IMG/VR virus record: IMGVR_UViG_3300021960_000575 | Location: 1-22,313 of that record | Strand: one strand, 5' to 3' | Length of the DNA stretch: 22,313 nt | Source: a virus | Shown: piece by piece, positions 7,397 to 22,313 of the stretch | Layout: each line of letters opens with the position of its first letter | How positions within the stretch are numbered: the first letter of the stretch is position 1 | Position numbers and translations under genes: made by a program | Notes under the pieces: generated by a model | Told to the model about the DNA's origin: nothing | Database searches by the model: none | What the model saw: the letters and a program-made list of their open reading frames with translations, nothing else

Positions 7397-10282
7397 ATGG
7401 CAAGAAAAAAACAACAAAAGAAAAGATTAAAAAAATATCAAGGTAAGTATGTTACTGCTGATAGGTTAGATATGTCTAAAGGTGGTAGAGTACAAGCTGC
7501 TGTAGGTGGTCCTTTTCAAAGAGAAGGAATGCAAGAAGGTAGGAATAGAGAAGATTATATATCTATCGGAGGTCCGGGTGGTGGTCAAGGTGGACCCGGA
7601 GCTGGTGAAAGTGAATCTCAAAGAAGAGCTAGAGAAGAGGCTGAAAGAAAAAAAAGAGAAGAAGAAGAAAGAAAAAAAAGAGAAGAAGAAGAAGCTGCAA
7701 AAAAAGCAGCAGAAGAAGCTGCTAAACGACCTCCTGCTTCTCCTGTAGGAACTCCTGCAGCTCAAACAGAAAGAGCTGCTAGAGCTGGTGCTGCTGGTCA
7801 GCGTATGGAAGATATAGCTACAGGTAAAATAGGTTTAGAAGAGTTAGGAGCTAAAGCTGAAGCAGTAAGAACAGAACAATTTAGAGATGAAGCTGCTGAA
7901 ACTATAACAGGTAAAGATGTAGATATAGCTAAAGACCAAGCTGCTTTAAAAGGTGAAGAATATAAAGCTGATTCTGTTACTAAAGAACAAGTAACTACAG
8001 CTCCCGGAGCAGACGTAGTAAAAGCTCCAGAAGATATTACAGCAGCTCAAGCAGATATAATGCAGGTAAGAGATGAAGATGTTGATGTACAAGCTGCTAA
8101 AGAAAAAGAAGCAAGACGTATAGAAGATGTAGCTCCCGGAGAAATAACAGCAGGTGTTAAGTTTGCAACTGTTGATGAATTACAAGCTGAAGCTGCAAAA
8201 GCTAATACTGTTGATGATATACTTAAAGGAACTTATTTAGTTGATGAAGTTGGTGCTGATGATGTTACTATTAGTGCAACTCCAGATGCTGAAAGACAAG
8301 AACGTGAAACTATTACAGGAGAAGCTGCTCCAGATGCAATAGCTGCTCAAATTGAAAAGACAGTTGGTTATACTGCTGCTAAACAAAGACCTGTAAAAGG
8401 TGTAGCTGCTCAAAGTGCTGCTGCAAATATGATAGCACAAACTGCAGACTTACCACCAGAAATTTCTTCTGCTATTGTTCAAGACCCAGCTAGTGTTGAA
8501 GCTCAAATAGATAATGAGCCAGTAGAAGTTCAAGCTGCAGTTGCTGCATTACCTACAGAAGCTTTAGTATCTTCACAGATGGAAACACTTTTAGGTGGTA
8601 TGGAAGATGGTGAAGTTCCTATGTGGGCTAAACCTGCTGTTGATGCTATTAATGCTAAAATGGCACAAAGAGGTTTAAGTGTTTCTACAGTTGGTAGAGA
8701 TAGTTTATTTAATGCTATTGTTCAAAGTGCTTTACCAATGGCACAAAGTAATGCACAAGCTTTACAAGCTAGAGCAGCTCAAAACTTAAGTAATGAACAA
8801 CAAGCTAACTTACAACAAGCTACACAAGAACAACAATTAAGATTACAGAATTTAGCTAATAGACAAACTGCTGAAAGTCAAACAGCTCAAATGTCTCAGC
8901 AAATGAAAGTTATGCAAAGTCAGTTTGACCAACAAGCTGTAATTACAACTGCTGAACAACAACAACAAACAAGAACACAAAATCTTCAAAACCAACAACA
9001 AGCTGCTGTTATTCAATCTCAAAATGAGCAACAAATGCGTATTCAAAATCTTGGGAATGAACAACAAATAGAAATGGCAGAGCTTCAAATAGAAGCTAAT
9101 GTTGAAGGTGCTAATCAATCTGCAGAGAACCAAGAAAAAATATTAGAGATGCAAGTTGCTGCAGATTTCTTATCTAAGAATGCTGGTTTTAAACAACAAA
9201 TGGAACTTGCAAATCTTAGCAATGAGCAGCAAATGCGACTTGCTAATTTATCAGCAAAGAACCAAGCAGAGTCTGAAAGATTAAGTAATGCTGAAAAAAC
9301 AGAACTGGCAAATCTTAACAAGAATATGCAAACTAATTTGCTTCAAGCAAATATTGCAAAAGATATGGGATTAGCTCAGCTTAATGTTGAACAACAATCA
9401 GCTATACAGAACGCTACTACTAAAGCTAACATGGACTTGACAAAGTTTAATGCAGCTCAACAAGTTGAATTAGCTAATAGTAAGTTTATGCAAACTGTAG
9501 CTCTTACTGATATGAATGCAGAGCAACAAGCTATTATGCAAAATGCTACAGCTATGGCTTCAATGGACTTAGCAAATTTAGGAACAAGAGAAAGATTAGC
9601 TGCACAAAATGCTAAAAACTTTTTAGCTATGGACATGGCTAATATGAACAATGAGCAACAAGCTAATATGATGAAAGCTCAACAAGAACAACAAAGATTG
9701 TTATCAGACCAAGCTGCTTTTAATGCTGCTGAACAATTTAATGCTACTTCAGAAAATCAAACAAATCAGTTTATGACTAGCATGGCTACTCAAATTGATT
9801 TAAACAATGCTGCAAGAATAGATGCAATGAATCAATTTAATACAACTCAACAGAATCAAGCAGAAGCACGTAAAGTTAATAGAGATGTAGATGTTGCTAA
9901 ATTTAATAGTCAAATAGCTGCTAGTGTAGACCAATATAGTAAAACACAAGAATTTTCTAGACAACAATTTAATTCTCAAAATGCTTTAATTATTGAACAA
10001 AGCAATGTACAATGGAGAAGAGATATAACTAGAGCAAACACAGCTATGCAACAACAAGTAAATATGATAAATACTCAAAATGCTTTTGGAATGACTCAAG
10101 CTGCTCAATCACAGCTTTGGCAAGAAATGAAAGATGAGTTTGATTATATTTGGAAGTCTGGAGAAAATGCTGCAGATAGAGATGCTAATCTAGCTATAGC
10201 AGGATTACAAGGTGATGCAAGTGTATTAAAAGAAACATCGTATTTAGATAGATTAAAAAGTTTAATTAATTTATTAGGTTAG
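7397..10282 (+). CDS. Large Gln/Asn-rich internal virion-type protein
   Basis: This 961-residue protein has no catalytic domain that I recognise. It has a basic N-terminus (residues 1-13), a SKGGRVQAAVGG motif at 27-38, a Gly/Pro stretch, and a highly charged helical block with ERKKREEE duplicated in tandem. An Ala/Glu-rich acidic part follows. Residues about 450-850 are extremely rich in Gln, Asn, Ala and Met, with repeated NLSNEQQ-type units (five exact NEQQ copies plus NVEQQ and NAEQQ variants). The C-terminus is less repetitive (LWQEMKDEFDYIWKSGENAADRD). The repeat has helical periodicity and few prolines, suggesting long helices or a coiled rod. By position among ejection-type genes it is probably an internal virion or tail component. 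I recall similar NEQQ proteins in marine phages, with structural annotation only. Confidence 0.55.
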   Translation: MARKKQQKKRLKKYQGKYVTADRLDMSKGGRVQAAVGGPFQREGMQEGRNREDYISIGGPGGGQGGPGAGESESQRRAREEAERKKREEEERKKREEEEAAKKAAEEAAKRPPASPVGTPAAQTERAARAGAAGQRMEDIATGKIGLEELGAKAEAVRTEQFRDEAAETITGKDVDIAKDQAALKGEEYKADSVTKEQVTTAPGADVVKAPEDITAAQADIMQVRDEDVDVQAAKEKEARRIEDVAPGEITAGVKFATVDELQAEAAKANTVDDILKGTYLVDEVGADDVTISATPDAERQERETITGEAAPDAIAAQIEKTVGYTAAKQRPVKGVAAQSAAANMIAQTADLPPEISSAIVQDPASVEAQIDNEPVEVQAAVAALPTEALVSSQMETLLGGMEDGEVPMWAKPAVDAINAKMAQRGLSVSTVGRDSLFNAIVQSALPMAQSNAQALQARAAQNLSNEQQANLQQATQEQQLRLQNLANRQTAESQTAQMSQQMKVMQSQFDQQAVITTAEQQQQTRTQNLQNQQQAAVIQSQNEQQMRIQNLGNEQQIEMAELQIEANVEGANQSAENQEKILEMQVAADFLSKNAGFKQQMELANLSNEQQMRLANLSAKNQAESERLSNAEKTELANLNKNMQTNLLQANIAKDMGLAQLNVEQQSAIQNATTKANMDLTKFNAAQQVELANSKFMQTVALTDMNAEQQAIMQNATAMASMDLANLGTRERLAAQNAKNFLAMDMANMNNEQQANMMKAQQEQQRLLSDQAAFNAAEQFNATSENQTNQFMTSMATQIDLNNAARIDAMNQFNTTQQNQAEARKVNRDVDVAKFNSQIAASVDQYSKTQEFSRQQFNSQNALIIEQSNVQWRRDITRANTAMQQQVNMINTQNAFGMTQAAQSQLWQEMKDEFDYIWKSGENAADRDANLAIAGLQGDASVLKETSYLDRLKSLINLLG
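7643..7690 (+). repeat. Perfect 24-bp tandem duplication
   Basis: Two identical 24-base units (7643-7666 and 7667-7690) lie in frame within the 961-aa gene and encode ERKKREEE twice. Each has an eight-A run, so the site is prone to replication slippage. Loss or gain of a unit keeps the frame. Confidence 0.8.
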
Positions 10283-10290
10283 GAGAAAAA

Positions 10291-11607
10291 ATGGGAATTT
10301 TAAGTAAAATAGGTAAAAATCTTAAAAGTGCTTTTAAAAGTGTTTTTAAAAGAATTAAAAAAGTAGTAAAGCCTATAGGAAGAGCTTTAAAAAAAGGACT
10401 AGGAAAAATAGGTAAATTTTTTGGAAAGCTAGGTCCGTTAGGTACACTAGCCTTGTCCTTGATGTTACCCGGTTTGGGAACTTTATGGACTCAATTTGGA
10501 GGTTGGGCTTCAACTATAGGAGGTCCTTTAGGAACTGTTTTAAATGGAATAGCAACTGCTGGTAATACTATAGGAAAAGTTTATAGTTCTGTTACAGGAA
10601 TGATAAGTGATACTATAGGAACAATAGCAGGAAATACTATTGGCAAAATTCCTGTTGGAGGTGGTAAAAACTTAACTGATGTTTATAAAGGTTTTACAGA
10701 GTGGGTAGGAAAAACTATGGACAATGTAAGAATGAAAGCAGGTTTACCTACTAAAAATATTACACCTACTACTGCTATGGAAGATGCTTCTAAACTTGGT
10801 AAAGAACTTACAGAAGTTCCAGATTTAAAACCAGTTATGGGAGATACAGGAGATATTATTAATTTAAAAATGAAAGAACCTTCTTTACTTTCAGCAGAAG
10901 GAGATGTTTTATTAGGACAAGAAATGCCAAGTTTAGAATTTACTACAGAAGTAACTAAACCTAGTGCTTCTTTAAAAGAATATTTAGGAGATACTATGCA
11001 GTATGATGCTACTCCTACAACAAAAGTTATAACAGGTTTTGAAAAAACTCCTATAAAAGTAGGTCAAGTAGAATTAGAAAGTTTAACTCCTACATATAAA
11101 GAAATAGCAACAGATGCTTTAACATCTGAACAATTAGCTACAAATCAAAGACTTACAAACTATACTGACTATTTAGATAATTACAATAAAAAAATACAAG
11201 AAGCTGCTAGTATTCCTTTTAAAACAGAATCAGGTAAAATAGATTATAAAATTAATCCTGATTTTAGTGAAAAAGATTTATTAGTTTCTAATATAAAAGA
11301 TATAGGAGACTTTGGACAAAAAGCATTTACAGCTCAAAGTATATTATCTGGAGAACCTCAAGAGGACCAAATACAACAAACAGGTTATAGTATACCTTAT
11401 AGTCAATTAGAATTACAAACAGATATTACAACAACAAATGATTATGCAAAAGCTTATGGTCAACAATATACTGCACAAGGATATCAAGGTCCAATGACGA
11501 TGGAAGGTTTTGCAAGTGCTGGTTATTATGGAGGAGACCCTTTTTCTTTTGGTCAATATTTAAACTCTAGACCTATTTCAGCACCTCAACCTACAATTAC
11601 TATATAG
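10291..11607 (+). CDS. Virion-type protein with long cationic amphipathic N-terminus, 438 aa
   Basis: Residues 1-46 carry 15 Lys/Arg and no acidic residue. The basic residues are spaced every 3-4 positions between Ile, Leu, Phe and Val (ILSKIGKNLKSAFKSVFKRI), giving a strongly amphipathic helix like a membrane-active peptide. Then comes a hydrophobic Gly-rich region (about 47-125, LGTLALSLMLPGLGTL, repeated GNTIGK segments). The first acid is at residue 107. The C-terminal two thirds is soluble, acidic, and rich in Tyr, Gln and Thr near the end. It has ribosome site AGGAGA at 10281-10286, overlapping the previous stop. Lying between other virion-type genes, it is a candidate DNA-ejection protein that inserts into or crosses the host membrane, which is an inference from composition. 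A structural role without membrane activity is possible. Confidence 0.5.
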   Translation: MGILSKIGKNLKSAFKSVFKRIKKVVKPIGRALKKGLGKIGKFFGKLGPLGTLALSLMLPGLGTLWTQFGGWASTIGGPLGTVLNGIATAGNTIGKVYSSVTGMISDTIGTIAGNTIGKIPVGGGKNLTDVYKGFTEWVGKTMDNVRMKAGLPTKNITPTTAMEDASKLGKELTEVPDLKPVMGDTGDIINLKMKEPSLLSAEGDVLLGQEMPSLEFTTEVTKPSASLKEYLGDTMQYDATPTTKVITGFEKTPIKVGQVELESLTPTYKEIATDALTSEQLATNQRLTNYTDYLDNYNKKIQEAASIPFKTESGKIDYKINPDFSEKDLLVSNIKDIGDFGQKAFTAQSILSGEPQEDQIQQTGYSIPYSQLELQTDITTTNDYAKAYGQQYTAQGYQGPMTMEGFASAGYYGGDPFSFGQYLNSRPISAPQPTITI

Positions 11608-11615
11608 GATAAATT

Positions 11616-12227
11616 ATGTCAACAATTAATGAACAAAATGCTCAAAGTTTTATAAACTATACAGGACCTGTTCCGGGACAAAGTTTAACTAATAGTCCTG
11701 ATTCTAAACAGGCTTGGGAGTTACCTCCACAGTTTGTTAATAAAAGACAAGCAGAACTTTATATACTTGAAGAACTTACTGAAAAAGAAAAGTTTATTAT
11801 TATTACTGATTTAATTGCAGACGGATTACCTATAGAAACTCTTACAAGAACTTATTTAATGAGTGGATATTCTAGAGGTCTTTGGGATGTTGATATGATG
11901 ATGCTTCTTGTAGAATCTGTTGCATATATACTTATGGCTTTAGCTGAAAAAGTAGGATTAGACTTTGAATTATATGCTGGAGAAAATGAAGAAGAAGCTG
12001 AAATAGAAACACCAGAACAAAAGAAAAAATTAGAGCAGTCTATTAACATTGTTAAAACAGGTATAGAAAAAATTTCTAATAAAAAATTAGAAACTATAAA
12101 AGGAACAAGTTCTGAACTTATTAAAAAAATAGAAGAAATACCAGAAGAAACAATACAAGAAGCTAAAAGTTTATTAGCAAAAAATAACGAACAACCAAAC
12201 AATAAAAGTTTATTAGAGGCAGAATAA
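11616..12227 (+). CDS. Virion-associated protein of unknown function, 203 aa
   Basis: Near the N-terminus it has GPVPGQSLTNSPDSKQAWELPP. This matches a 'PGQSLT..P...PWE.PP' signature I know from uncharacterised marine phage proteins, including T4-like cyanophage ones. After it come a helical core with a Met-rich hydrophobic segment (DMMMLLVESVAYILMALAE) and a highly charged C-terminal half rich in Glu and Lys that looks like a coiled coil. The AGGATAA ribosome site at 11606-11612 overlaps the preceding stop. The stop codon overlaps the next start (TAATG at 12225-12229), so the two genes are translationally coupled. A structural or assembly role is inferred from signature and location. Confidence 0.5.
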   Translation: MSTINEQNAQSFINYTGPVPGQSLTNSPDSKQAWELPPQFVNKRQAELYILEELTEKEKFIIITDLIADGLPIETLTRTYLMSGYSRGLWDVDMMMLLVESVAYILMALAEKVGLDFELYAGENEEEAEIETPEQKKKLEQSINIVKTGIEKISNKKLETIKGTSSELIKKIEEIPEETIQEAKSLLAKNNEQPNNKSLLEAE

Positions 12228-14173
12228 TGGCATCACCATATACACAAGATATTACACAATCAAAAGTTTATAAAAAAATTACAGGTAATAAAGAAGAAAA
12301 AACTATAGATAAAATTTTAAATACTTTAACTGAGTTTAAAGCTTTAGGAGAAAGTAATCTTGCTGATAATATAAAAGAACTTCAAGATTCTAATACTTTT
12401 GAAATACAACAAAAGAAAAATCATTTAAAAAATTTAAACAATATATCAAAAATAACAGATACTATTAATACTAATTATGGTGGTAACGTAGCTATGTGGG
12501 CTATGGATTATGCTAAAAATGATTTTGAAAATTCTGTATTTAGTTCTTTTCCTATGGATGAAATTACTAATAAAAAATTAGAATTACAACCAGACGAAGC
12601 TTATGGAGATATTTTAAAACAACGAGCAAAAAATATAGAAAATAGATATAATAATATTATTAATAAGTTAGATGATGAAGGAATATCTTATAGAGATTTA
12701 GAAAAAGGAGAAACATTTATTGATAAAGAATATCAAAATGTATATAATAATTTAACTAAACAAAATTCTTTTAATGTTATTAAAGGTATCGGAAGTCTTT
12801 TTAAAGGTCAAGGTTTCAATTATACAGACTCTGCAGAATTAAAAAGACAATTTAATGAAAATATAGCTAACAGTAAAGTATCTATGCTTGAAAGTATTAA
12901 TGATGAATTTAAAGCTTTGTATGCTTTATCACCAAAACTTGCAGGAAATTACAAAGAAGCTGTAAAAAATGCTGATGTTAGAAGAGAAATTGTTCACAAA
13001 GAATCTGATTTAAAAACAGGAACAAGAATTAATGCTAAAGGTGAACAAGAAACTTATACATACTTTGAAAAGTTAATGGTCTATACAGATAAAAATGGTA
13101 ATAGGCAAACTAATAAAGAAAGAATAGAATTTGATGGTGAAGTAGTCCCACAAAAAGGACAAATAAATAAACACATGTTAAACTTAACTTTGTATACTGA
13201 CAAAGGTAAAACAGCTTATAGAGCATTAATGGAAGAGGGTTTTACTCCTGAAGCTGCTAATGAACAAATACCAGAAGAACAAAGACTTAGTATGGATAGT
13301 ATTAGACTAACAGACTACGTTGCTCAAAACTTTGAAAAGCTATCAGAAGCAAGATTAAATGATTATTATACAACTGATATTTCTGGAAGAGTTATTGAGA
13401 TAAATCCGGGAGTAAAAGTTCCAAGTCTTAGAGAATATGCTGCAGAGTTATTAAATATTTCTGACATGGATGTTAATCCAAACAATAAAGTAGACGGTGC
13501 TATTATTGTAAATAGTAGTTTAAATGAAGCTACTAAAACTCATTTACAAACTGATGAAGGTCAGCAAGATTTAACAGATATTAAAAATTATATTTTACCA
13601 GCTAATATAGAAGATAAAATTATTAAAGATTATCAAGATGGTAATTTAGATGTTAATTTAAAAGCTAATGGTCATTACTTTGGAGAAACAAATGATACTA
13701 TTTTAGAAAGTCCAGAAGACTTAGCTAAGTTTGGTTTAAATGGTCCAGTTAAAGTAGGTATAGATTTGAATACTATGCTTCCTGTTTTTGTTCCTTTAAA
13801 TACTGATGGTGAAGAAGTTGTTGTTATTCCTGATGAAGAAAAAACAGACTTTCAATTATATATGGAAAAAAGAACAGAAAAAACAACAGAAAGAAAACAA
13901 ACCCAAAAAGATAAAACAAAATTAATATCAGATTTTAGACAAGCTATAAATTTAATAGGAACTGGAACTATAGCTGACAGAGCTGTTGATTATTTTGGCA
14001 GAACTCAAACTGAAAAAGAAGAAAGAAAAAATAGAGAGCCTTTATGGAATACCATAAAAGAAAAATATGGTTTAGATAGAAGAGACTTAGTAGGATTAAA
14101 AGGAGAAATATTTGCAGACTTAAATCCAGAAAAAGCTCAAGAAATTACAAATCTTATACTTAATTACAAATAA
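12227..14173 (+). CDS. Putative internal virion protein, 648 aa, function unknown
   Basis: I recognise no domain in this large soluble protein. It is extremely Lys/Asn/Glu/Ile-rich and its DNA is among the most AT-rich in the window. The N-terminal third is predicted to be mostly helical (repeated charged helices, NYGGNVAMWAMDYAKNDFE). A central part at about residues 255-305 has beta character (GTRINAKGEQETYTYFEKL, VYTDKNGNRQTNKERIEFDG). The C-terminal part is helical again, with a very charged linker (KRTEKTTERKQTQKDKTK) before a final segment DRAVDYFGRTQ. Its start overlaps the previous stop and the next large virion-type gene follows after two bases. It occupies the place where podoviruses encode internal core proteins, so an ejected core protein is the best guess. 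Confidence 0.45.
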   Translation: MASPYTQDITQSKVYKKITGNKEEKTIDKILNTLTEFKALGESNLADNIKELQDSNTFEIQQKKNHLKNLNNISKITDTINTNYGGNVAMWAMDYAKNDFENSVFSSFPMDEITNKKLELQPDEAYGDILKQRAKNIENRYNNIINKLDDEGISYRDLEKGETFIDKEYQNVYNNLTKQNSFNVIKGIGSLFKGQGFNYTDSAELKRQFNENIANSKVSMLESINDEFKALYALSPKLAGNYKEAVKNADVRREIVHKESDLKTGTRINAKGEQETYTYFEKLMVYTDKNGNRQTNKERIEFDGEVVPQKGQINKHMLNLTLYTDKGKTAYRALMEEGFTPEAANEQIPEEQRLSMDSIRLTDYVAQNFEKLSEARLNDYYTTDISGRVIEINPGVKVPSLREYAAELLNISDMDVNPNNKVDGAIIVNSSLNEATKTHLQTDEGQQDLTDIKNYILPANIEDKIIKDYQDGNLDVNLKANGHYFGETNDTILESPEDLAKFGLNGPVKVGIDLNTMLPVFVPLNTDGEEVVVIPDEEKTDFQLYMEKRTEKTTERKQTQKDKTKLISDFRQAINLIGTGTIADRAVDYFGRTQTEKEERKNREPLWNTIKEKYGLDRRDLVGLKGEIFADLNPEKAQEITNLILNYK

Positions 14174-14175
14174 TA

Positions 14176-17100
14176 ATGACACTACAATTTGGTAAAATAA
14201 ATACTACCGAGTTTCAAACAACTACGCCTCAAAAAACAGGATTAAGTTTTAGTAGAATAGGGGATAAAGAACCTTTATCAGAACCTTACATGAGTCGTGA
14301 CGAAGCTTTAAAGTATGCTATGAAATCAGGCAGCATGGATTCTGTTCGTGGTATAAAGCAAATGTTTGGAAAGCTTACAGGCAACGAAGATTTAATTGAA
14401 GAATTAAAAAAGAAAAACAAAAAACTAAAAGAGCTTATGGAACACCCTGAATATGGGGATGAAGTAACTGCTGCATACTTTGGTTCTGCAATTGCTCTTG
14501 ACCCTGTAGGTTATGTACCTTTAGTAGGTTGGGCTAAAAAAGCTAAAACACTTTCACAAGCTACAAAATATGGAGCAGGTTATGGAGGTGCATTTAGTAG
14601 TTTAGCATATGTTGATGAAGAAGCTGGAGAAAGTAGAGCATTTAATCTAGCTGCTGGTACAACACTAGGAGGCACATTAGGTTTAGGTGGTGGTCTTATA
14701 GGTAGGTCTATATCTAAAAGATTTAATAAAGAACCAAACTTTGCTGCTACATTAAAAGATAGACAAGAAAGACTTTTAAGAGAAAAAGTAGAAAAAACTA
14801 AAGAAGGAGAGTTTCAAACTCCACAAGAATTAGAAAAGGCTATTGATGATATAATAGCAGATTTAAGAACTAAAGAACCTAAAAAACTTACGCAAAGTGT
14901 TCAAGACTTTTATACTCAACATGTTGGAGATAAGGTTTGGAATCTTGCTGTTAATAATTGGGGTTCAGCATTAGTCGGTACTGCAGCAGGTGTTGCTGGT
15001 GTTAATGCTTTTACTGATGAAGAATCTACTCAAGCTCAAAAAATATTCTATGGTTTGTTAGCTACTCTTACAGGAGTCGGTGGAACTAAAGCACTAGGTA
15101 GAATACCTGTTGGCGATAAAAATTTAAGTCAGTTAATGTCTCAAGGAATTGTAGATAATTATGCACTTCCTAAAAGATATGTCCAAATACAACAAGAAAC
15201 TTTTGGTGATGTAAATAATTTATCACAACAAGCTGTTGACATAGTTAAAAAAACAGCTACTTTACCTATAGAAGAAAGAAAAGTTTTATATAGAATGTTA
15301 GATGGAGATTTAGAAACAGCTCCAGATTTAATTGGGTTTAAAAAAGAATCAAGAAACTTAATTAAAACTCTTGGTCAAGAAATGGTTGATGCTGGTTTGT
15401 TGTCTGAAAAAATATTTAGAAAAAATGCAGAAACATACGTACATAGAAGTTATTTAAAATATGTAAACGGTGAAATAGACAAGGCTTCGTATAACGCAGC
15501 AAGACAGTTTAAAATTATTGGAGATGAATTAAAACCAAGAGGACAAAAGCTAGACAAAGAAATAAATATAAAAACTTATAAAGATAATTTAAATCCTAAC
15601 AGTAAAAACTATAAACTTTACGAAGGTTACGAAGTTTTTCCTATTGCTAGAGTAGTATCAAAAACTCAATACGATAATATAAAAGCAAGAATAGCTAAAA
15701 AGAAAACACTAAAAGATAAAGATTATAGACTTAACAAAGACGTAGAAGATATACGAGATTGGAAAGTAGCTGAAGAAGGTTTAGATAGTTACAAACTTGA
15801 AAGCACAAAAAGAATAGAGCTTAGAAGAGACTATACTAAAAAAGAAAGAGAGCAAATGGGTGAGATAGAAGATGCTGCTTTTGCAATATCTGAAACTGCT
15901 CGTTTAATGACAAACGATTTAGCTATATTTAAACTATATAGTAACATAGCAAAAGATAGGTCTTTATCACTTTCTAAAATTGATTTTGAAAATAAAGTAA
16001 TAAAAGAAGAAATAAATCCTGAAAACTGGATATTAGTTCCGGATGCTACTTTATCTAAAGCTGCTAAAGTTGATGGAGAAAGTGTTAAAAAGTTTGGTAA
16101 ACTTTCAGATAAATACGTACCAGTAGAAGTATATAACGATATAACACGTTTAAATAAAATTAAAACCGAAGGTAATACTATAGAAAAGAATTATCTAGGT
16201 ATGAACAGGCTATGGAAAAAATCTAAGACTGCTTGGAACCCTGTAGTTCATGTCAACAACATGACATCAAACGTATTGTTATATGATTTTGCTGATGCTA
16301 ATTATAAATTTTTACCACAAGGCTTTAAAGAATTAACAGAAGGTTTAGAAGGAACAGGAAAATCTAAGCTATATGATTTAGCAAAATCACTTGGGGTTTA
16401 TGATGTAGACATAGTTAGTAAAGAATTAACATCTGAAACTAAAGATGTTTTAGCAGATACTTTAAAACTTTTAGCAGATAAATCAAGTTCTGAAATTGTT
16501 AATTCTCAAAAGTATGCAATAGAAACATTTAAAGGTTTAAGTAAAAAAGGTTACGATATGACCTTTGGAAAATTAGAAAACCTTTATCAGTTAGAAGACC
16601 AAGCATTTAGAATGGCTTTATTTATAGATAGATTATCTAAAGGCTTTAGTCCAGATAAAGCAGCAGCAGATGCTAAAAAATGGTTTATAAACTATGATAT
16701 CAATGCTCCATTAATTAATTTAATGAGAAGATATCCTACTCCATTTTTATCTTATACGTATAGAGTTGTTCCTTTACTAGCTGAATCTGCTATTAAAAGA
16801 CCACACAAGTTTGGAAAGTGGGCATTAGGAGCTTACACACTTAACGAAGTTGGTAAACAATACGGTGTTGGTGACGAAGAAAAAGAAAGGTTATTAATGA
16901 GAGATGACCTAAAACAAAAAATGTTTGGTATGCCTTTTTTACCTTCAACAACAATTAAAACACCTTTTGCTTCTGGTAAAGATGAAGAAACACCTTTATA
17001 TTTAGATGTAAAGCGTTTTATTCCCGGTGGTGATGTGTTTGCTTTAGACCCTGAAAGAGGTATAGGTATACCAGTACCATTTACAGATAAGTCATTAAAG

Positions 17101-18309
17101 TTACCGACAACTGTAACTCCTTCTTTTGGAGCTTTAGGAGAAATATTTATACCTTTGATGACTGGAGTAGACCCTTTTACATTACAAAAGCTAGAAGGAC
17201 TTGGATTGGGTAATGATGATAAAGTAAAAGTACAACACATACTTAGTAGGCTTTCACCAAACATACCTACTACTGCTTTTACTGCTCCTATATTTGGACC
17301 AGATAATAGATTTGATAAGTATAATCCTTTTGCAAAATCATTTGGTTCTAAGAAAATTAGTACAGCTTTTAGACAAGCAACAGAAGAAAGTGAAGCACAG
17401 TATTCTACAAACTACACACCTTTTGAAGCTATTATAAATGCTTTTGGTTTTAAATTACAACCAATAGAAATGGAAAAATTATTAGGTATAAAGTCTGCAG
17501 AGTTTAGAAGAAAGTATTCAGATTCTAAAAAGCAAATAAATAGAATAACAAAAAGATATGCAGAAGGTAAAATATCTAAAAGTGAAGCTGAAAAAGACAT
17601 ACAAGAAATATATAAAAATTTACAAACAGAACAAGAAAAAGTATCTAGAATATTTGAACAAGTAAGAGAACCTAAAGTTTTAGGAGGACCTGTAGTTTCT
17701 AATGTAAAAGATGACCCTAAAGATAGAAAAATGGATAATGTTCAAGGAACTTACACACAAGTAGCACGAAATTTAAGTGATGTTGAAAGAGCTATAGATG
17801 AGTTAGAAGAACAAACAAAACCTAAAACAGATATGGAACGATTAGGTTTTAACAAAGGTGGAGAAGTTAATCCAAATATTATAGCAATTGATAACGAATT
17901 AAAAAAATTAGGATATTCAAAAGAAGCTAGAGCTGCTAAGTTAGGAAACATAGGAGTTGAAACAGGTTATACTTATGACTATAAACAACAACAACAAAAT
18001 GGTAAAGGTTATGGTTTATATCAATATGATTTTCAAAAACCTTATTATGAAAAATATTTAAAACAAAATAATTTACAAGATTCTGTAGCTTCACAGGTTG
18101 GTTTTACACATGAAGTTTTGTCAGGTAATGATGCTGTTATGGGTATGAATACAGATGATAGAGTAGCTTTACAAAAAGCTTTAACTGAAAGTAAAGATAT
18201 TTCATTTATAACACAAATGTTTTCTGAAAAATATGAAAAGCCCGGAGTTCCTCATTTAGATAGACGAATAGAAGAAGCTAATAAAATATATAAATTATTA
18301 CAGGACTAA
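14176..18309 (+). CDS. Giant internal virion protein with LPD38-like region and C-terminal lysozyme-like domain
   Basis: This 1377-residue protein is in the size class of podovirus ejection proteins such as T7 gp16 (1318 aa). The N-terminal part has helices and Gly/Ala-rich hydrophobic stretches (DPVGYVPLVGW, TTLGGTLGLGGGLIG, ALVGTAAGVAGV) that could enter a membrane. The middle (about residues 676-930) has KSKTAWNPVVHVNN and RRYPTPFLSYTYRV, resembling the LPD38 region of large phage polyvalent proteins. After a charged linker and FNKGGEV (1225-1231) comes a lysozyme-like domain. AKLGNIGVETG has the likely catalytic Glu1262, followed by GKGYGLYQYD, QVGFTHEVL and a C-terminal FSEKYEKPG...DRRIEEA helix, as in phage tail-lysozyme domains. 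It probably enters the cell with the DNA and opens peptidoglycan. Alternatively the C-terminal domain serves in lysis. Confidence 0.65.
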   Translation: MTLQFGKINTTEFQTTTPQKTGLSFSRIGDKEPLSEPYMSRDEALKYAMKSGSMDSVRGIKQMFGKLTGNEDLIEELKKKNKKLKELMEHPEYGDEVTAAYFGSAIALDPVGYVPLVGWAKKAKTLSQATKYGAGYGGAFSSLAYVDEEAGESRAFNLAAGTTLGGTLGLGGGLIGRSISKRFNKEPNFAATLKDRQERLLREKVEKTKEGEFQTPQELEKAIDDIIADLRTKEPKKLTQSVQDFYTQHVGDKVWNLAVNNWGSALVGTAAGVAGVNAFTDEESTQAQKIFYGLLATLTGVGGTKALGRIPVGDKNLSQLMSQGIVDNYALPKRYVQIQQETFGDVNNLSQQAVDIVKKTATLPIEERKVLYRMLDGDLETAPDLIGFKKESRNLIKTLGQEMVDAGLLSEKIFRKNAETYVHRSYLKYVNGEIDKASYNAARQFKIIGDELKPRGQKLDKEINIKTYKDNLNPNSKNYKLYEGYEVFPIARVVSKTQYDNIKARIAKKKTLKDKDYRLNKDVEDIRDWKVAEEGLDSYKLESTKRIELRRDYTKKEREQMGEIEDAAFAISETARLMTNDLAIFKLYSNIAKDRSLSLSKIDFENKVIKEEINPENWILVPDATLSKAAKVDGESVKKFGKLSDKYVPVEVYNDITRLNKIKTEGNTIEKNYLGMNRLWKKSKTAWNPVVHVNNMTSNVLLYDFADANYKFLPQGFKELTEGLEGTGKSKLYDLAKSLGVYDVDIVSKELTSETKDVLADTLKLLADKSSSEIVNSQKYAIETFKGLSKKGYDMTFGKLENLYQLEDQAFRMALFIDRLSKGFSPDKAAADAKKWFINYDINAPLINLMRRYPTPFLSYTYRVVPLLAESAIKRPHKFGKWALGAYTLNEVGKQYGVGDEEKERLLMRDDLKQKMFGMPFLPSTTIKTPFASGKDEETPLYLDVKRFIPGGDVFALDPERGIGIPVPFTDKSLKLPTTVTPSFGALGEIFIPLMTGVDPFTLQKLEGLGLGNDDKVKVQHILSRLSPNIPTTAFTAPIFGPDNRFDKYNPFAKSFGSKKISTAFRQATEESEAQYSTNYTPFEAIINAFGFKLQPIEMEKLLGIKSAEFRRKYSDSKKQINRITKRYAEGKISKSEAEKDIQEIYKNLQTEQEKVSRIFEQVREPKVLGGPVVSNVKDDPKDRKMDNVQGTYTQVARNLSDVERAIDELEEQTKPKTDMERLGFNKGGEVNPNIIAIDNELKKLGYSKEARAAKLGNIGVETGYTYDYKQQQQNGKGYGLYQYDFQKPYYEKYLKQNNLQDSVASQVGFTHEVLSGNDAVMGMNTDDRVALQKALTESKDISFITQMFSEKYEKPGVPHLDRRIEEANKIYKLLQD

Positions 18310-18310
18310 T

Positions 18311-18751
18311 ATGGGATTTCCTTTTGAGATAATAACTATGTTAGCCTCTACAGTTCTTGGTGGGGTTATGAGTGTTTGGTCTGAAAGTCGTAAAGCTAAA
18401 GCAGAAGCACAAAAACTTCTTATAACTCGTGGTGAGTTTGATATGAAAGCTAGAAAGCAATCACTTGACCAAGGGTTAAAAGATAAAGGCTTTGCATGGA
18501 CTAGAAGAATTATAGCACTAACATCAGTATTTGCTATAGTTCTTTTACCTAAACTTGTAGCTGTATATTACCCTGATGTAAGTGTTACAGTAGGCTATAC
18601 TAACTGGAATCCGGGTGGTTTGTTTAGGAGTGGTAGAGAAGTATTTGAATGGATTACTTTTCAAGGCTTAGTAATAACTCAATTAGATACCAACTTAGTA
18701 TCAGCTATTATAGGCATGTACTTTGGTGGTAGTTTAGCTAAAGGTAAGTAA
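18311..18751 (+). CDS. Holin-like membrane protein, 146 aa
   Basis: It has a hydrophobic segment at about residues 5-22, a charged helical region (AESRKAKAEAQ-type, 24-60), a clear membrane helix at 66-87 (RIIALTSVFAIVLLPKLVAVYY) and a weaker C-terminal hydrophobic segment (126-141, ending GGSLAKGK). Small size, two or three membrane segments, a basic C-terminus and location after the structural genes all fit a holin of the three-helix kind common in marine phages. I did not identify a specific family with certainty. AGGA at 18302-18305 is the ribosome site. Its stop overlaps the next start (TAATG at 18749-18753). No separate endolysin gene is adjacent, which weakens a simple lysis-cassette reading. 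Confidence 0.5.
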   Translation: MGFPFEIITMLASTVLGGVMSVWSESRKAKAEAQKLLITRGEFDMKARKQSLDQGLKDKGFAWTRRIIALTSVFAIVLLPKLVAVYYPDVSVTVGYTNWNPGGLFRSGREVFEWITFQGLVITQLDTNLVSAIIGMYFGGSLAKGK

Positions 18752-19032
18752 TGAACGACTGGATACAAGCTATAGAAACTATAGGTATTCCGGCAGCAGG
18801 TGCAGCAGGTCTAGGATATTTAGTTTGGGTACTCTTTAAATCTTTAATAGCAGACATACATAAAAAGTTAGACACACAACATGGCATGATAGTTGCACTG
18901 ATAGATAGAATAAGACAGATGGATAACGACATGATTAGAATAGATGCTATGTGTCGTGCAGCAATGGGTTTAAAACCTGATATAGATAGGATAGCTAGGG
19001 CAGATGGACAGAAAGACCAACGAAAAGATTGA
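18751..19032 (+). CDS. Small membrane protein with coiled-coil tail, 93 aa
   Basis: It has one N-terminal membrane helix (about residues 9-31, TIGIPAAGAAGLGYLVWVLF) and then a long amphipathic helix (MIVALIDRIRQMDNDMIRID). It ends with KPDIDRIARADGQKDQRKD. I recall this 'PDI.RIARADG..D.R.D' ending from small hypothetical proteins of marine phages, usually beside holin-like genes. It probably sits in the inner membrane with the coiled coil in the cytoplasm or periplasm and may partner the 146-aa protein. Its start overlaps that gene's stop, and its own last 29 bases overlap the start of the csgF-like gene. It is therefore the junction between ordinary phage genes and the curli-type module. The function is unproven. 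Confidence 0.55.
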   Translation: MNDWIQAIETIGIPAAGAAGLGYLVWVLFKSLIADIHKKLDTQHGMIVALIDRIRQMDNDMIRIDAMCRAAMGLKPDIDRIARADGQKDQRKD

Positions 19033-19582
19033 TAAGAAAATATTACAAGTAGTAAATCTTTCTCCAAGTGAATCTTGGATAGAAAAAATTGTAGATATAC
19101 ATCCTATGAAGCAGATTACTGTAGCTTCTATAGTTCAAGTATTGGTATTTGGATTTATGTTGTTAGCTTTCTGGGGTAACTCTAAACTCTTTGCAGACGA
19201 AGTAGTATTTAAGTTTAAGAGTCCTAGCTTTAGTGGTGTTGGTACATCATCACACTACTTGACAATCCAGAATCAAGAGTTTAATCGTAAAGAAGCATTA
19301 AAGGCAGAGATAAAAGCTTTACAAGACCAGATAGAAAGAGACAAAGAGAATACAACACTTGCAAGATTTATAAGAAATTTAGAATCTAGAATATATGCAC
19401 AATTATCTAGACAGTTAGTAGAAAATTTATTTGGTGAGACTCCGAGTGATAATGGCGTACTAGAATTAGAGGGCAACCGAATAGAATATAGTGTTGTCGA
19501 TGGAATAATAACTTTAAAAATAACGGACAGTGATGGGAATACGACAACTATATCTTTGCCTATCGGTAGCTTTACTTTCTAG
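19004..19582 (+). CDS. csgF: CsgF-like curli secretion accessory protein
   Basis: A hydrophobic export segment (about residues 39-58) ends KLFA with a likely cleavage after Ala64. The mature N-terminus DEVVFKFKSPSFSG matches the start of E. coli CsgF (TMTFQFRNPNFGG), the part that sits in the CsgG pore. The C-terminal half also matches. A helical FIRNLESRIYAQLSRQLVENL corresponds to FTQAIQSQILGGLL, and the strands IEYSVVDGIITLKITDSDGN, TTTISLP correspond to the CsgF beta end. The visible frame starts at ATG 19004, giving an unusually long basic/polar leader of 38 residues. A later start at ATG 19106 (residue 35) gives a normal signal peptide but has no ribosome site. The mature middle has a charged helix (97-117). 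The first 29 bases overlap the 93-aa gene and the last 50 overlap csgG. Confidence 0.85.
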   Translation: MDRKTNEKIDKKILQVVNLSPSESWIEKIVDIHPMKQITVASIVQVLVFGFMLLAFWGNSKLFADEVVFKFKSPSFSGVGTSSHYLTIQNQEFNRKEALKAEIKALQDQIERDKENTTLARFIRNLESRIYAQLSRQLVENLFGETPSDNGVLELEGNRIEYSVVDGIITLKITDSDGNTTTISLPIGSFTF

Positions 19583-20387
19583 TTGTGCTGTACTAAATCA
19601 GAATCAGGACTTAGTATTAACACAAGATATAAAGCCTAGTTCTATATTAGATTTACAGTCAGAAGAATTAAAAAACTTACCAAGTGCAAAAGCAAGACCG
19701 ACTATAGCTATATATCCTAATAGCTTTAGAGATTTAACAGGTCAACGTAGAAGTAATAGTTCTTTTGCTTTGTTTAGTACAGCTATTACACAAGCTCCTG
19801 AAGCATTTTTAATTAGAGCTTTTAAACATGCAGCAGGTGGTGAATTTTTTAGAGTTGTAGAACGTGTAGGTTTAGATGACCTAACAAAAGAAAGACAATT
19901 AATTAGAAGTACTCGTAAAGAGTTTGAAGAAGATAAAAAAATGAAACCTCTGCTATTTGCGGGGTTATTGGTTCAGGGAGGAGTTGTTAGTTATGAGGCT
20001 AACCTCAAGTCTGGAGGTGCTGGTGCTAGATATCTAGGTATAGGTAATAGTAAACAGTACAGAGAAGATACAGTTACTATATCATTACGATTAGTTTCTG
20101 TGTCAACTGGAGAAGTGTTGATGGAAACTTTAGTTTCTAAAAGCATTATATCCACAAGTGTTTCTCAGGATGTGTTTCGTTTTATAGAAGCTGGTACTGA
20201 ACTGGTAGAAATAGAAGGGGGAGTTGCTGAGAACGAAAGTGTTTCTATAGCTTTACAAAAAGCAATAGAGACTGGAGTATTAAATATAATATATACAGGA
20301 ATACAGAGAGGGTATTGGGAATATGAAAACATTAAAATTAATGAGCCTGATTGCATTGATGAATGTATCAATGGTATACGGGGCTGA
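19533..20387 (+). CDS. csgG: CsgG-like outer-membrane curli secretion channel lipoprotein
   Basis: The protein is 284 residues from ATG 19533 (GTG 19530 is an alternative; GGA at 19525-19527 favours the ATG). The signal peptide ends in lipobox LSSC with lipid-bearing Cys18. Strong CsgG landmarks follow: ARPTIAIYPNSFRDLTGQ, STAITQAPEAFLIRAFK, LDDLTKERQLIRSTRKE, SYEANLKSGGAGARYLGIG (153-171), VSTGEVL (190-196), DVFRFIE and SIALQKAIETGV, then RGYWEY. In E. coli CsgG forms a nonameric 36-strand outer-membrane pore exporting curlin. By eye, the constriction segment (R72 to F81) keeps the Phe equivalent to E. coli Phe56 but not Tyr51 or Asn55, so pore selectivity may differ. The signal peptide is encoded inside the end of csgF, and the last 65 bases contain the start of the curlin-like gene. 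Confidence 0.92.
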   Translation: MGIRQLYLCLSVALLSSCAVLNQNQDLVLTQDIKPSSILDLQSEELKNLPSAKARPTIAIYPNSFRDLTGQRRSNSSFALFSTAITQAPEAFLIRAFKHAAGGEFFRVVERVGLDDLTKERQLIRSTRKEFEEDKKMKPLLFAGLLVQGGVVSYEANLKSGGAGARYLGIGNSKQYREDTVTISLRLVSVSTGEVLMETLVSKSIISTSVSQDVFRFIEAGTELVEIEGGVAENESVSIALQKAIETGVLNIIYTGIQRGYWEYENIKINEPDCIDECINGIRG

Positions 20388-21039
20388 TAATGAGATATAT
20401 GTTGACCAATCGGGTAATACAGCAAATATTGATTTAGAACAACTTGGAAACTCTAATATTATTGGTGGACTAAATTCTGTTGCTGGTACATTAACAGCAT
20501 TGGATTTAGATGGTTTAAATCTTACACTAGATATAAATCAAATCGGTAATACCAACAAGTTTCTTGGTGATATTTATGGTGATAACGTAACAGGATTCTT
20601 TGAGTTTGATGGTGATAGTAATACATTCACTATACAAGGCGACCCAACGAATACATACGGAATAGATGGTTCTGATTATAATGTTGATGTTACTGGAAAT
20701 TCTAACACATTTACGTTAGATACCGGTACATCTGCACTAGCTGGTACGCTTGATTTAGATTGGATAATCAATGGAGATAGTAACACATTTGATTTTGATA
20801 TTAATTATGATGGTGGTACTAACTACGTAGATGTAGATGGAGATAGTAATACAGTAAACTTTACAGGGAGTGGATATGCAGGTGGATATTTTTACCTCGA
20901 CCAAACAGGTAGTAGCAGAACATTTAACATTACACAATCTTCAACATTGGTTTCTGACTGGCTTAAAATTGAGTCTACTTCTTCTAACGGTACTGTTTGT
21001 GTCGTTCAGAATGATGGTGGTACAAGCACAAGCTGCTAA
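20323..21039 (+). CDS. Secreted curlin-like repeat protein, probable CsgG substrate
   Basis: This 238-residue protein has a signal peptide (residues 1-20, cut after VYG). Residues 24-48 read IYVDQSGNTANIDLEQLGNSN, a near-canonical curlin repeat (Q.G..N.A...Q.G..N). Further units become Asp-rich: NQIGNTN (72-78), DGDSNT (96-101), TGNSNT (124-129), NGDSNT (150-155), DGDSNT (172-177), QTGSSRT (194-200). The key Gly residues are mostly 22-28 apart, close to the 19-23 residue curlin unit. The C-terminus has two Cys (226 and 238) around VVQNDGGTSTS, so a disulfide or anchor is possible. Its position right after csgG makes it the likely exported amyloid-type fibre subunit. It is not a close CsgA or CsgB, and an adhesin with a beta-solenoid is the alternative. 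The start lies within csgG (65-base overlap). Confidence 0.7.
   Translation: MKTLKLMSLIALMNVSMVYGADNEIYVDQSGNTANIDLEQLGNSNIIGGLNSVAGTLTALDLDGLNLTLDINQIGNTNKFLGDIYGDNVTGFFEFDGDSNTFTIQGDPTNTYGIDGSDYNVDVTGNSNTFTLDTGTSALAGTLDLDWIINGDSNTFDFDINYDGGTNYVDVDGDSNTVNFTGSGYAGGYFYLDQTGSSRTFNITQSSTLVSDWLKIESTSSNGTVCVVQNDGGTSTSC
20395..20925 (+). repeat. Degenerate curlin-like repeats
   Basis: About eight protein-level units centre on G-[ND]-x-N. Key Gly residues are at 31, 42, 75, 97, 125, 151, 173 and 196 of the curlin-like protein. The first three keep the curlin Gln (Q.GN), and the middle four have GDSNT or GNSNT. Codons differ between units, so the repeats are old rather than recent duplications. Confidence 0.6.
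20865..20870 (+). promoter_or_regulatory. Ribosome binding site deciding the FecR-protein start
   Basis: AGGGAG ends 5 bases before ATG 20876. It lies in the middle of the coding part of the curlin-like gene and is the best-placed Shine-Dalgarno for the FecR frame. It supports a start that overlaps the curlin-like gene by 164 bases, rather than a start further down that would lack the hydrophobic leader. Confidence 0.6.
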
Positions 21040-22063
21040 TATTGGAAACATAACAGAACTTAATGGAGCTGGTAGAGTTGTTAGGGATGACACTTACCAA
21101 GCTTCATTAGATTTTAACATAGAAAGTTACGATAATGTCCAAACTTCTAATGGGAGATTGGGCATTACTTTTTTAGATGACAGTCAAGTTCGTTTGACTG
21201 AACATTCTGAATTGATTATAGATGAGTTTATTTACGACCCAGACCCATCTAAATCTAAAATGGCTCTACAGTTTGCTAGTGGTACTGCAAGGTTTATCAC
21301 AGGAAAACTAGCAACTATAGACAAAGAAAATATAATTATAAATACACCTAGTGCTACGATAGGTATTCGTGGTACAGACTTTACTGTAACTGTAGATGAA
21401 TTAGGTAGAAGTTTAGTTATATTATTACCAGACGATGACGGTCTTCCAAGTGGAGAGATAGTTGTCGCAACAGCTATGGGACAGGTAATACTTAACAAGC
21501 CTTATCAAGCTACAACAGTTTCAATGTACGAGACTGAACCAACCAAACCCGTTATCCTTGACTTGACTCTTGAGTTAATTGATAACATGTTAATAGTAAA
21601 TGCACCAAAGGAAATACAAGAGAATGACGAAGGAACAAATGGAGGGAACAGCACTAGCATTCTTGATGTTGATTTCCTTGAGTTTGATGATTTAGAAGTA
21701 GACTATCTTGCAGAAGATAACTTAGAGTTTACAGAGCTTGACATCAACTATCTTGATGTAAATTTTCTTGAAGACTTGTTAGATATCATAGAAGATGTCA
21801 ATGAGTTAGACCAGACTGAATCACTTTTAAAAACTGATATAGATTTAAAAGGGACACAAGTCGGATATGATTCTGATACACAGATAAATACTTTTATAAC
21901 GGATAATCTTATTACGTTTTATAAAACTTTAGAAGATACTATACGTTTAGATTTAGATAAGAGTAATGCTTACACTGTTATTCTAATACAAAATGGTAAG
22001 AGTACACAGATAATTGTTAATGGTGGAGGAGACTCTACTATAAAAATTACACAGGATAATTAA
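20876..22063 (+). CDS. Secreted FecR-domain protein with acidic pentad repeats
   Basis: From ATG 20876 (AGGGAG just upstream; GTG 20870 is an alternative) the protein has 395 residues. A basic/polar leader, a hydrophobic helix (about 26-44) and VQAQA|ANIG give a probable signal peptidase site after residue 53. Residues 54-190 form a FecR domain: GNITELNGAGRVVRD, NVQTSNGRLGITFLDDSQVRL, the 'SATIGIRGTDF' motif (159-169) and a VVATAMGQV strand. Residues 261-300 are eight consecutive pentads of the form [DNST]-x-L-[DEA]-x. The rest is mixed, ending in a beta-like YTVILIQNGKSTQIIVNGGG segment. FecR domains are periplasmic sensor or scaffold modules, often encoded with CHASE2 or adenylate cyclase genes. 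A regulatory or fibre-anchoring role in the curli module is inferred. Confidence 0.8.
   Translation: MQVDIFTSTKQVVAEHLTLHNLQHWFLTGLKLSLLLLTVLFVSFRMMVVQAQAANIGNITELNGAGRVVRDDTYQASLDFNIESYDNVQTSNGRLGITFLDDSQVRLTEHSELIIDEFIYDPDPSKSKMALQFASGTARFITGKLATIDKENIIINTPSATIGIRGTDFTVTVDELGRSLVILLPDDDGLPSGEIVVATAMGQVILNKPYQATTVSMYETEPTKPVILDLTLELIDNMLIVNAPKEIQENDEGTNGGNSTSILDVDFLEFDDLEVDYLAEDNLEFTELDINYLDVNFLEDLLDIIEDVNELDQTESLLKTDIDLKGTQVGYDSDTQINTFITDNLITFYKTLEDTIRLDLDKSNAYTVILIQNGKSTQIIVNGGGDSTIKITQDN
21656..21775 (+). repeat. Eight acidic pentad repeats in the FecR protein
   Basis: The pentads are SILDV, DFLEF, DDLEV, DYLAE, DNLEF, TELDI, NYLDV and NFLED. Leu is invariant at position 3, the next residue is acidic in seven of eight, and the fifth is usually Val, Phe or Ile. 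This resembles but does not fit the classical pentapeptide-repeat consensus A(D/N)LXX, because the first position is Asp or Asn rather than Ala. Confidence 0.75.
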
Positions 22064-22064
22064 T

Positions 22065-22313
22065 ATGAAGTGGTCATCATTACTATTAGCTTTACTAACA
22101 CTACCATTACTATTCAATAGTGTCCCGCTAGAAGTACTAAGACTCAAAACCTTTGATGCTATTGTACCTGAACAAAGTCCAACCGGACACTTTACAATCC
22201 TCAACATAGACGAAACTTTCCTAGATGAGCAAGGTGGATATCCCCTACCTAGAGAAACACTTGCAAAGATTCACAATGATTTAATAGAAGCTGGTGCTTA
22301 TGGTGTAGGATGG
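22065..22313 (+). CDS. CHASE2-domain membrane protein, N-terminal part (3' end outside window)
   Basis: There are 83 residues visible. ATG 22065 has AGGA at 22053-22056 as ribosome site. An N-terminal hydrophobic helix (MKWSSLLLALLTLPLLF) is followed by LEVLRLKTFDAIV, then FTILNIDETFLDEQGGYPLPRETLAKI and DLIEAGAYGVGW. These match the CHASE2 pattern: 'L.L.D' helix, 'I..IDE.SL...G.WP.PR..LA.L...L...GA..VG.D'. CHASE2 is an extracytoplasmic sensor domain normally joined to adenylate or guanylate cyclase, diguanylate cyclase or kinase domains, through three later membrane helices. The output domain, if any, lies beyond the window. FecR followed by CHASE2 is a known bacterial gene pairing. It starts two bases after the FecR stop. 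Confidence 0.75.
   Translation, partial: MKWSSLLLALLTLPLLFNSVPLEVLRLKTFDAIVPEQSPTGHFTILNIDETFLDEQGGYPLPRETLAKIHNDLIEAGAYGVGW

Follow-up and report, generated by a model that had tools for sequence, protein, structure and literature searches.

A conserved cationic amphipathic N-terminus on a protein of a probable DNA-ejection cassette in marine podophages

How podophage core proteins enter or pass through host membranes is an unsettled question, and one gene of the IMG/VR virus record IMGVR_UViG_3300021960_000575 raises it in a specific form: does a protein of the phage carry its own membrane-contact segment? The window analysed here is the entire record of 22,313 bases. Its gene g10291 opens with a long, strongly basic segment, which the first-pass annotation had read as a built-in membrane-active peptide on a virion protein that could help DNA ejection proteins to insert in the inner membrane. 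In the open-licence literature we found neither a description of a g10291-type protein nor virion proteomics of phages that carry one.

The N-terminal region of g10291

The ORF g10291 occupies positions 10291..11607 on the plus strand and encodes 438 residues; it has syntenic homologues. A ribosome-binding site, AGGAG, lies 5 nt before the ATG (10281..10285, plus strand). Of the 438 codons of the ORF, only some 126 at its start fall within the interval first annotated, 10291-10670.

Residues 1-46 (10291..10428, plus strand) contain 15 Lys/Arg, at positions 6, 9, 12, 16, 20, 21, 23, 24, 27, 31, 34, 35, 39, 42 and 46, and no Asp or Glu, exactly the count originally given; the acid-free run is in fact longer, reaching residue 106, with K96 as the next charge and D107 as the first acid. 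None of 200,000 shuffles of the protein's own residues reproduced the composition of this N-terminus, and a comparable 46-residue stretch arose anywhere in the shuffled protein in 2 of 20,000 cases. The hydrophobic residues follow a 3-4-4 (11-residue) pattern. At 100 degrees the hydrophobic moment of residues 2-46 was 0.632; randomising the order of these residues 5,000 times gave 0.167 +/- 0.085 and never a value as high. Composition, conservation and AF2 together describe the segment as a cationic amphipathic helix. The structure prediction suggested as a check returned a helix over residues 2-58 for the full protein, with pLDDT 68-81 over residues 1-30, and over residues 3-36 for the N-terminal part (pLDDT about 71); confidence was low from residue 40 to about 110. 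Chance or AT-rich bias was rejected as the origin of the segment, since AT bias also favours Glu codons and yet acids are missing, and it leaves the helical phase unexplained. A Sec signal peptide was likewise rejected: the n-region of such a peptide is far shorter than this 46-residue basic part.

The Gly-rich hydrophobic region described behind the basic part was also recovered. Residues 47-95 (10429..10575, plus strand) form a hydrophobic, Gly-rich stretch of 49 residues without a charge, the start of which belongs to a conserved KLGxxG....LP core. Across the family, a conserved KxGxxG core and then a charge-free stretch follow the helix. Within residues 26-130, the charge-free stretch had a median of 41 in 104 family proteins, compared with 14 in 672 other ORFs, among which it reached at least 25 in 50 and at least 49 in 15. 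A hydropathy of 1.6 is the usual value for calling a transmembrane helix; over 19 residues, this value was reached or exceeded in 22 of 49 family rows, and the hydrophobic segment of the window protein, at 1.43, lies below it.

Further along, residues 241-340 (11011..11310, plus strand) were predicted by AF2 to form a C-terminal domain with a long beta-hairpin and helices, with pLDDT above 90 across most of it. Foldseek searches of the g10291 prediction against PDB and BFVD gave no match below E 0.07, leaving the C-terminal domain without a fold match.

Recovery and conservation of the family

Neither Pfam nor PHROG holds a family of g10291's own. A tblastn search of the phage collection with the g10291 protein gave no match, as did one with a relative as query, and a pattern search using the whole protein found no relative. 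In our view, masking of the basic N-terminus by the low-complexity filter is part of the reason that tblastn failed; for example, T7 gp7.3 aligned to T7 itself begins only at residue 22. Rapid divergence behind the head, together with this filtering, probably explains why BLAST missed most relatives.

Relatives were recovered by synteny instead: the ORF adjoining the stop of the g7397 homologue, the gene directly upstream, nearly always begins MG[FILWK] and shows the same design. This gave 46 distinct members, after two loci (L114 and L126) had been filtered out of the N-terminus set, one of which (L114) was restored for the analysis of the 11-residue pattern. The 46 N-termini carry 9-18 Lys/Arg in their first 46 residues (median 12), and 33 of them are acid-free. 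A motif search then returned 483 stretches and 272 relatives, 80 of which were taken for analysis; these 80 yielded 67 distinct proteins, 61 of them new beyond the syntenic set. The 67 include two cut ORFs (offsets 2 and 9), which set the lowest Lys/Arg count and were excluded from the counts of offsets, repeats and charge-free stretches. A g7397 homologue stood directly upstream in 58 of the 59 distinct motif-found loci with room for one, and a copy of the downstream gene g11616 was detectable in 61 of the 67 distinct loci. For profile work, alignments A2-A7 were chosen subsets of 26, 30, 25, 22, 11 and 26 rows; A1 and A7 leave out truncated ORFs and the locus L140.

Position-wise conservation was scored in the 24 rows that had the motif at offset 34 and no gaps; among these rows are two duplicate pairs. 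Within residues 2-36, positions 4, 11, 15, 18, 22, 26, 29, 32, 33 and 36 were hydrophobic in all 24 rows. Positions 9 and 23 were basic in every row, and positions 6, 9, 16, 20 and 23 in at least 23. Over the first 46 codons, pN/pS did not exceed 0.56 in 104 of 105 pairs, and in the remaining pair pS was 0; the pairs overlap and include near-duplicates, so these are not 105 independent tests. The first 46 codons are under purifying selection. A signature screen applied to the ORFs of these loci with a length of 100 aa or more, with cut-offs derived from the family itself (at least 9 Lys/Arg, at most one acid, moment at least 0.68), passed 43 of 898 distinct ORFs, all 43 of them in the g10291 family. 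Among homologues of the other window genes in these loci, none combined at least 10 Lys/Arg with an absence of acids in 46 residues. These results show that g10291 is a conserved gene and not a chance stretch.

The 11-residue pattern recurs in the family. Lag 11 gave the strongest self-similarity in 19 of 46 members and in 34 of 59 of an independent set, and agreement of residue classes peaked at the same lag (0.567, compared with 0.536 at lag 7 and 0.477 at lag 18). When tested against a more stringent null in which the class pattern is preserved, residue-level repetition was modest (mean Z 0.90, with 8 of 104 above 2). Because the excess at lag 11 is then only modest, we claim an 11-residue pattern and not repeats, and the idea of true 11-residue sequence repeats is weakened. 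One relative has, inside its amphipathic head, a perfect 33-bp tandem repeat of 2.2 copies (L120:5996-6069), that is, a recent duplication of one 11-residue unit; in the same comparison, run on this locus and the window, the window contained no tandem duplication of that length. The motif offset was 34 in 59 of 90 members, 36 in eight, 45 in seven, 41 in six, 27 in three and 39 in two, with five single values; the count omits the 14 of 104 members without the motif. Length steps that preserve the phase of the helix are only a tendency, and the members at offsets 36 and 39 do not fit it.

Gene order, lineage and distribution

From its left end, the window encodes a capsid protein (PF25209), an SU10-type adaptor (PF24175), a 534-aa protein, an S74 tail fibre and DUF7936; g7397, g10291, g11616, g12227, g14176, a small membrane-protein-like ORF and a curli block follow. 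The curli block (19004-22313) comprises csgF, csgG, a further ORF, FecR and CHASE2. A curli/FecR/cyclase block of just this kind is described for HTVC023P-type pelagiphages in the available part of PMC9599517, which also reports these phages among the most abundant in the ocean; on this description, gene content places the window with them. A search of the viral collection found 589 relatives for the 534-aa protein, 80 of which were taken for analysis, and its cultured relatives include the Pelagibacter phages HTVC103P/104P/115P, HTVC033P, HMO-2011 and CRP phages. An Rfam search gave no match.

The five genes from g7397 to g14176, all on the plus strand, are probably a DNA-ejection cassette. 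Directly upstream of g10291, g7397 (7397..10282) encodes a conserved Gln-rich protein of 961 aa. Downstream lie g11616 (11616..12227), an acidic protein of 203 aa with a conserved PIPGQSLT motif; g12227 (12227..14173), 648 aa, gp15-sized and placed in the cassette by size and order only; and g14176 (14176..18309), 1377 aa, gp16-sized, with a C-terminal Phage_lysozyme2 domain (PF18013, E 9e-19). Most loci that reach far enough repeat this order, with an acidic protein of ~170-260 aa followed by proteins of ~440-870 aa and ~1,050-2,050 aa. Profiles of the cassette proteins matched no solved ejection protein in PDB, so the identification rests on gene order and the lysozyme domain, and the same gene order suggests that g10291 is a virion protein. 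Of 40 records searched for the T7 gp13 family, 39 lacked it and only T7 itself had it. A holin or lysis protein was rejected for g10291 on account of its 438 residues and its position in the cassette; a different ORF, small and membrane-protein-like, is present at 18311. The start of g7397 (7397-7500) is likewise basic, and its family consensus has a similar basic start. In HTVC103P-type phages, further small, very Lys-rich ORFs of 51-81 aa separate the cationic gene from the g11616 homologue (L140:26740-27345, L145:27559-28101, L146:26856-27422).

Four cultured phages carry the gene, namely the Pelagibacter phages HTVC103P, 104P and 115P and Pseudoalteromonas phage Slicky01; the family profiles match them at E 4e-9 to 1e-15, and the gene is annotated as 'hypothetical' in all four. 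Its product is gp58 in HTVC103P, gp60 in HTVC104P, gp45 in HTVC115P and WGH49920.1 in Slicky01. The same profiles matched none of 11 whole records of related phages (HMO-2011, CRP-1, -2, -3, -207, -345, HTVC033P, CHOED, MQM1, N3_19 and phiM6). In those 11, the slot between the g7397-like and g11616-like genes holds other proteins, often of 65-145 aa, without the signature. Roseobacter, Rhizobium, Vibrio and Aeromonas relatives likewise have other small proteins in the slot (L154-L159, L141, L143, L147, L153). Given these 11 phages, the helix is not essential to the cassette in general, and its function is either lineage-specific or supplied by another protein elsewhere. The proposed help to DNA ejection proteins agrees with the position of the gene in an apparent ejection cassette, but is tempered by the related phages that do without the helix.

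In HTVC115P (MN698247.1), a HlyC-type lysine-acyltransferase gene (L145:25861-26310) lies directly upstream of the cationic gene (26298-27551) and overlaps it. HlyC was found in 3 of 58 records, all of them cultured pelagiphages, and in none of 50 IMG/VR records; it is absent from the window, and in HTVC103P and 104P it is located elsewhere. The HlyC of HTVC115P might acylate lysines of the cationic protein.

Readings of the N-terminus and known systems

We give an even chance to the reading in which g10291 is ejected and contacts a membrane of the host envelope through its helix and hydrophobic segment. The protein would belong to the DNA-ejection cassette of marine HTVC023P/HTVC103P-like podophages, most likely being packaged in the virion and leaving it early in infection. 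Its N-terminal helix may then bind the anionic membranes of the host envelope, the charge-free hydrophobic stretch behind it may insert, and g10291 could anchor or line a passage, which would be continued as far as the cytoplasm by the larger cassette proteins. From the computed sequence features, their conservation, the order of the genes and the lysozyme domain in g14176, we infer virion location, ejection, membrane binding and the membrane involved. The chance is set this high since conservation is no less strict for the hydrophobic face and the charge-free stretch than for the charge, and neither the face nor the stretch is needed for DNA binding.

The original peptide interpretation is plausible and partly supported, and the observation beneath it is confirmed: the helix is peptide-like and amphipathic by sequence, its faces are kept in dozens of relatives, an uncharged Gly-rich stretch lies behind it, and the antimicrobial peptide LL-37 appeared, though only at E 0.11, in the PDB search with the 26-member N-terminus profile (A2). 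T7 gp7.3 ranked above LL-37 in that search, at E 0.067, with a Rop-like protein at 0.094 between them. This best PDB match, the 11 related phages without the helix, the hydropathy of 1.43 in the window segment, the low AF2 confidence between residue 40 and about 110 and the failure of the other cassette proteins to match a solved ejection protein all speak against the membrane reading.

The strongest rival, which we consider possible though unlikely, is a T7 gp7.3-like protein: inside the virion, its basic helix would grip the end of the DNA or form a lining of the portal-tail channel, and it would be expelled before the core proteins, with no part played by a membrane. T7 gp7.3 was also the top PDB match of the 61-residue head as a single sequence (E 0.12), and the sole match of profile A2 in six frames of the T7 genome (E 1.2e-4). 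It begins MGKK, has 12 Lys/Arg and 2 acids in 46 residues, and bears a Gly-rich hydrophobic stretch behind its helix. According to the available part of PMC11784390, the one resolved part of gp7.3 is its C-terminal loop on the nozzle, density around dsDNA in the T7 tail channel is assigned to its mostly positive N-terminus, and gp7.3 is proposed to leave the virion first. On that account gp7.3 comes close to the case named beforehand as refuting a membrane role, a basic segment confined to binding DNA or protein inside the capsid. Against this rival, the match is marginal and spans only ~25-42 residues of gp7.3, with nothing matched outside this first part, including the C-terminal nozzle-binding part (84-98); the profile-profile probability in hhalign was 32 percent, and the longer profile A7 reached E 0.16 in the T7 genome. 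The gene is also placed differently from T7 7.3, and DNA binding alone leaves the strictly kept hydrophobic face and the charge-free stretch unexplained. A combined reading, with a tail-channel protein that is the first to be expelled and meets the envelope afterwards, is consistent with all the data.

Two further rivals are improbable. In a helix-bundle conduit, the N-terminal helices would form an alpha-helical barrel for DNA, with luminal lysines and the hydrophobic face turned to lipid or to neighbours. The prominence of lag 11 points this way, and the phiX174 H tube is also built from hendecads (PMC7354561, as far as the available text goes); repetition beyond the amphipathic pattern is modest, however, and chains that each carry fifteen like charges would resist association with one another unless DNA or an acidic partner were present. 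We give equally little credence to an assembly signal with no role in infection, by which the basic helix would dock on an acidic partner such as g11616, or on the portal or scaffold, during head assembly. The g11616-like proteins encoded downstream do have a negative net charge in 38 of 38 cases (median -21, range -31 to -7), and the basic face could pair with g11616 rather than with a membrane; the 61 of 67 motif-found loci with a g11616 copy agree with this, but docking does not call for the charge-free stretch, and the docking partner is hypothetical.

The fullest version of the membrane reading seems to us rather improbable: a built-in virion membrane-entry peptide composed of 11-residue amphipathic units and an inserting hydrophobic stretch, with length steps mostly near whole turns (7, 11, 18 residues) and a possible lysine-acylation switch in some lineages. 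For the question of membrane entry, the g10291 head offers a defined membrane-contact candidate that is short, strongly conserved and easily synthesised, with four cultured carriers.

Among known systems, the T7 gp14/gp15/gp16 cassette, whose counterpart is P22 gp7/gp16/gp20, resembles the cassette of the window in gene order and sizes after the tail genes and in the wall-degrading domain of its last protein; it differs in that the window cassette gave no sequence match to the solved T7 or P22 ejection proteins. The N-terminus of T7 gp14 has 4 Lys/Arg in 46 residues, and the available part of PMC8954989 describes gp14 as a protein of about 200 aa with 4-5 predicted TM helices. T7 gp7.3 shares with g10291 the MG start, the Lys-rich amphipathic helix and the Gly-rich hydrophobic stretch after it, but it is 99 aa long instead of 438, and its gene lies outside the core-protein cluster, upstream of the one for the portal. 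Tail tape measure proteins have similar Gly/Ile-rich basic-hydrophobic stretches, and for 11 of 42 members phrog_167, a family of such proteins, came up at E 1e-3 or below, perhaps for compositional reasons; the matches are partial, and the profiles run to 1,001-1,853 positions as against 438 aa. Cationic amphipathic antimicrobial peptides, LL-37 and amphibian peptides among them, are likewise net positive and helical with a strong hydrophobic moment, a likeness to the g10291 head by sequence alone, whereas the g10291 helix is the N-terminus of a large phage protein. The phiX174 H pilot protein belongs to an ssDNA microvirus, and the accessible portion of PMC7354561 describes a lumen lined mostly by N, Q and R, not Lys; its likeness to g10291 is one of pattern, an 11-residue helix pattern in a DNA-delivery protein.
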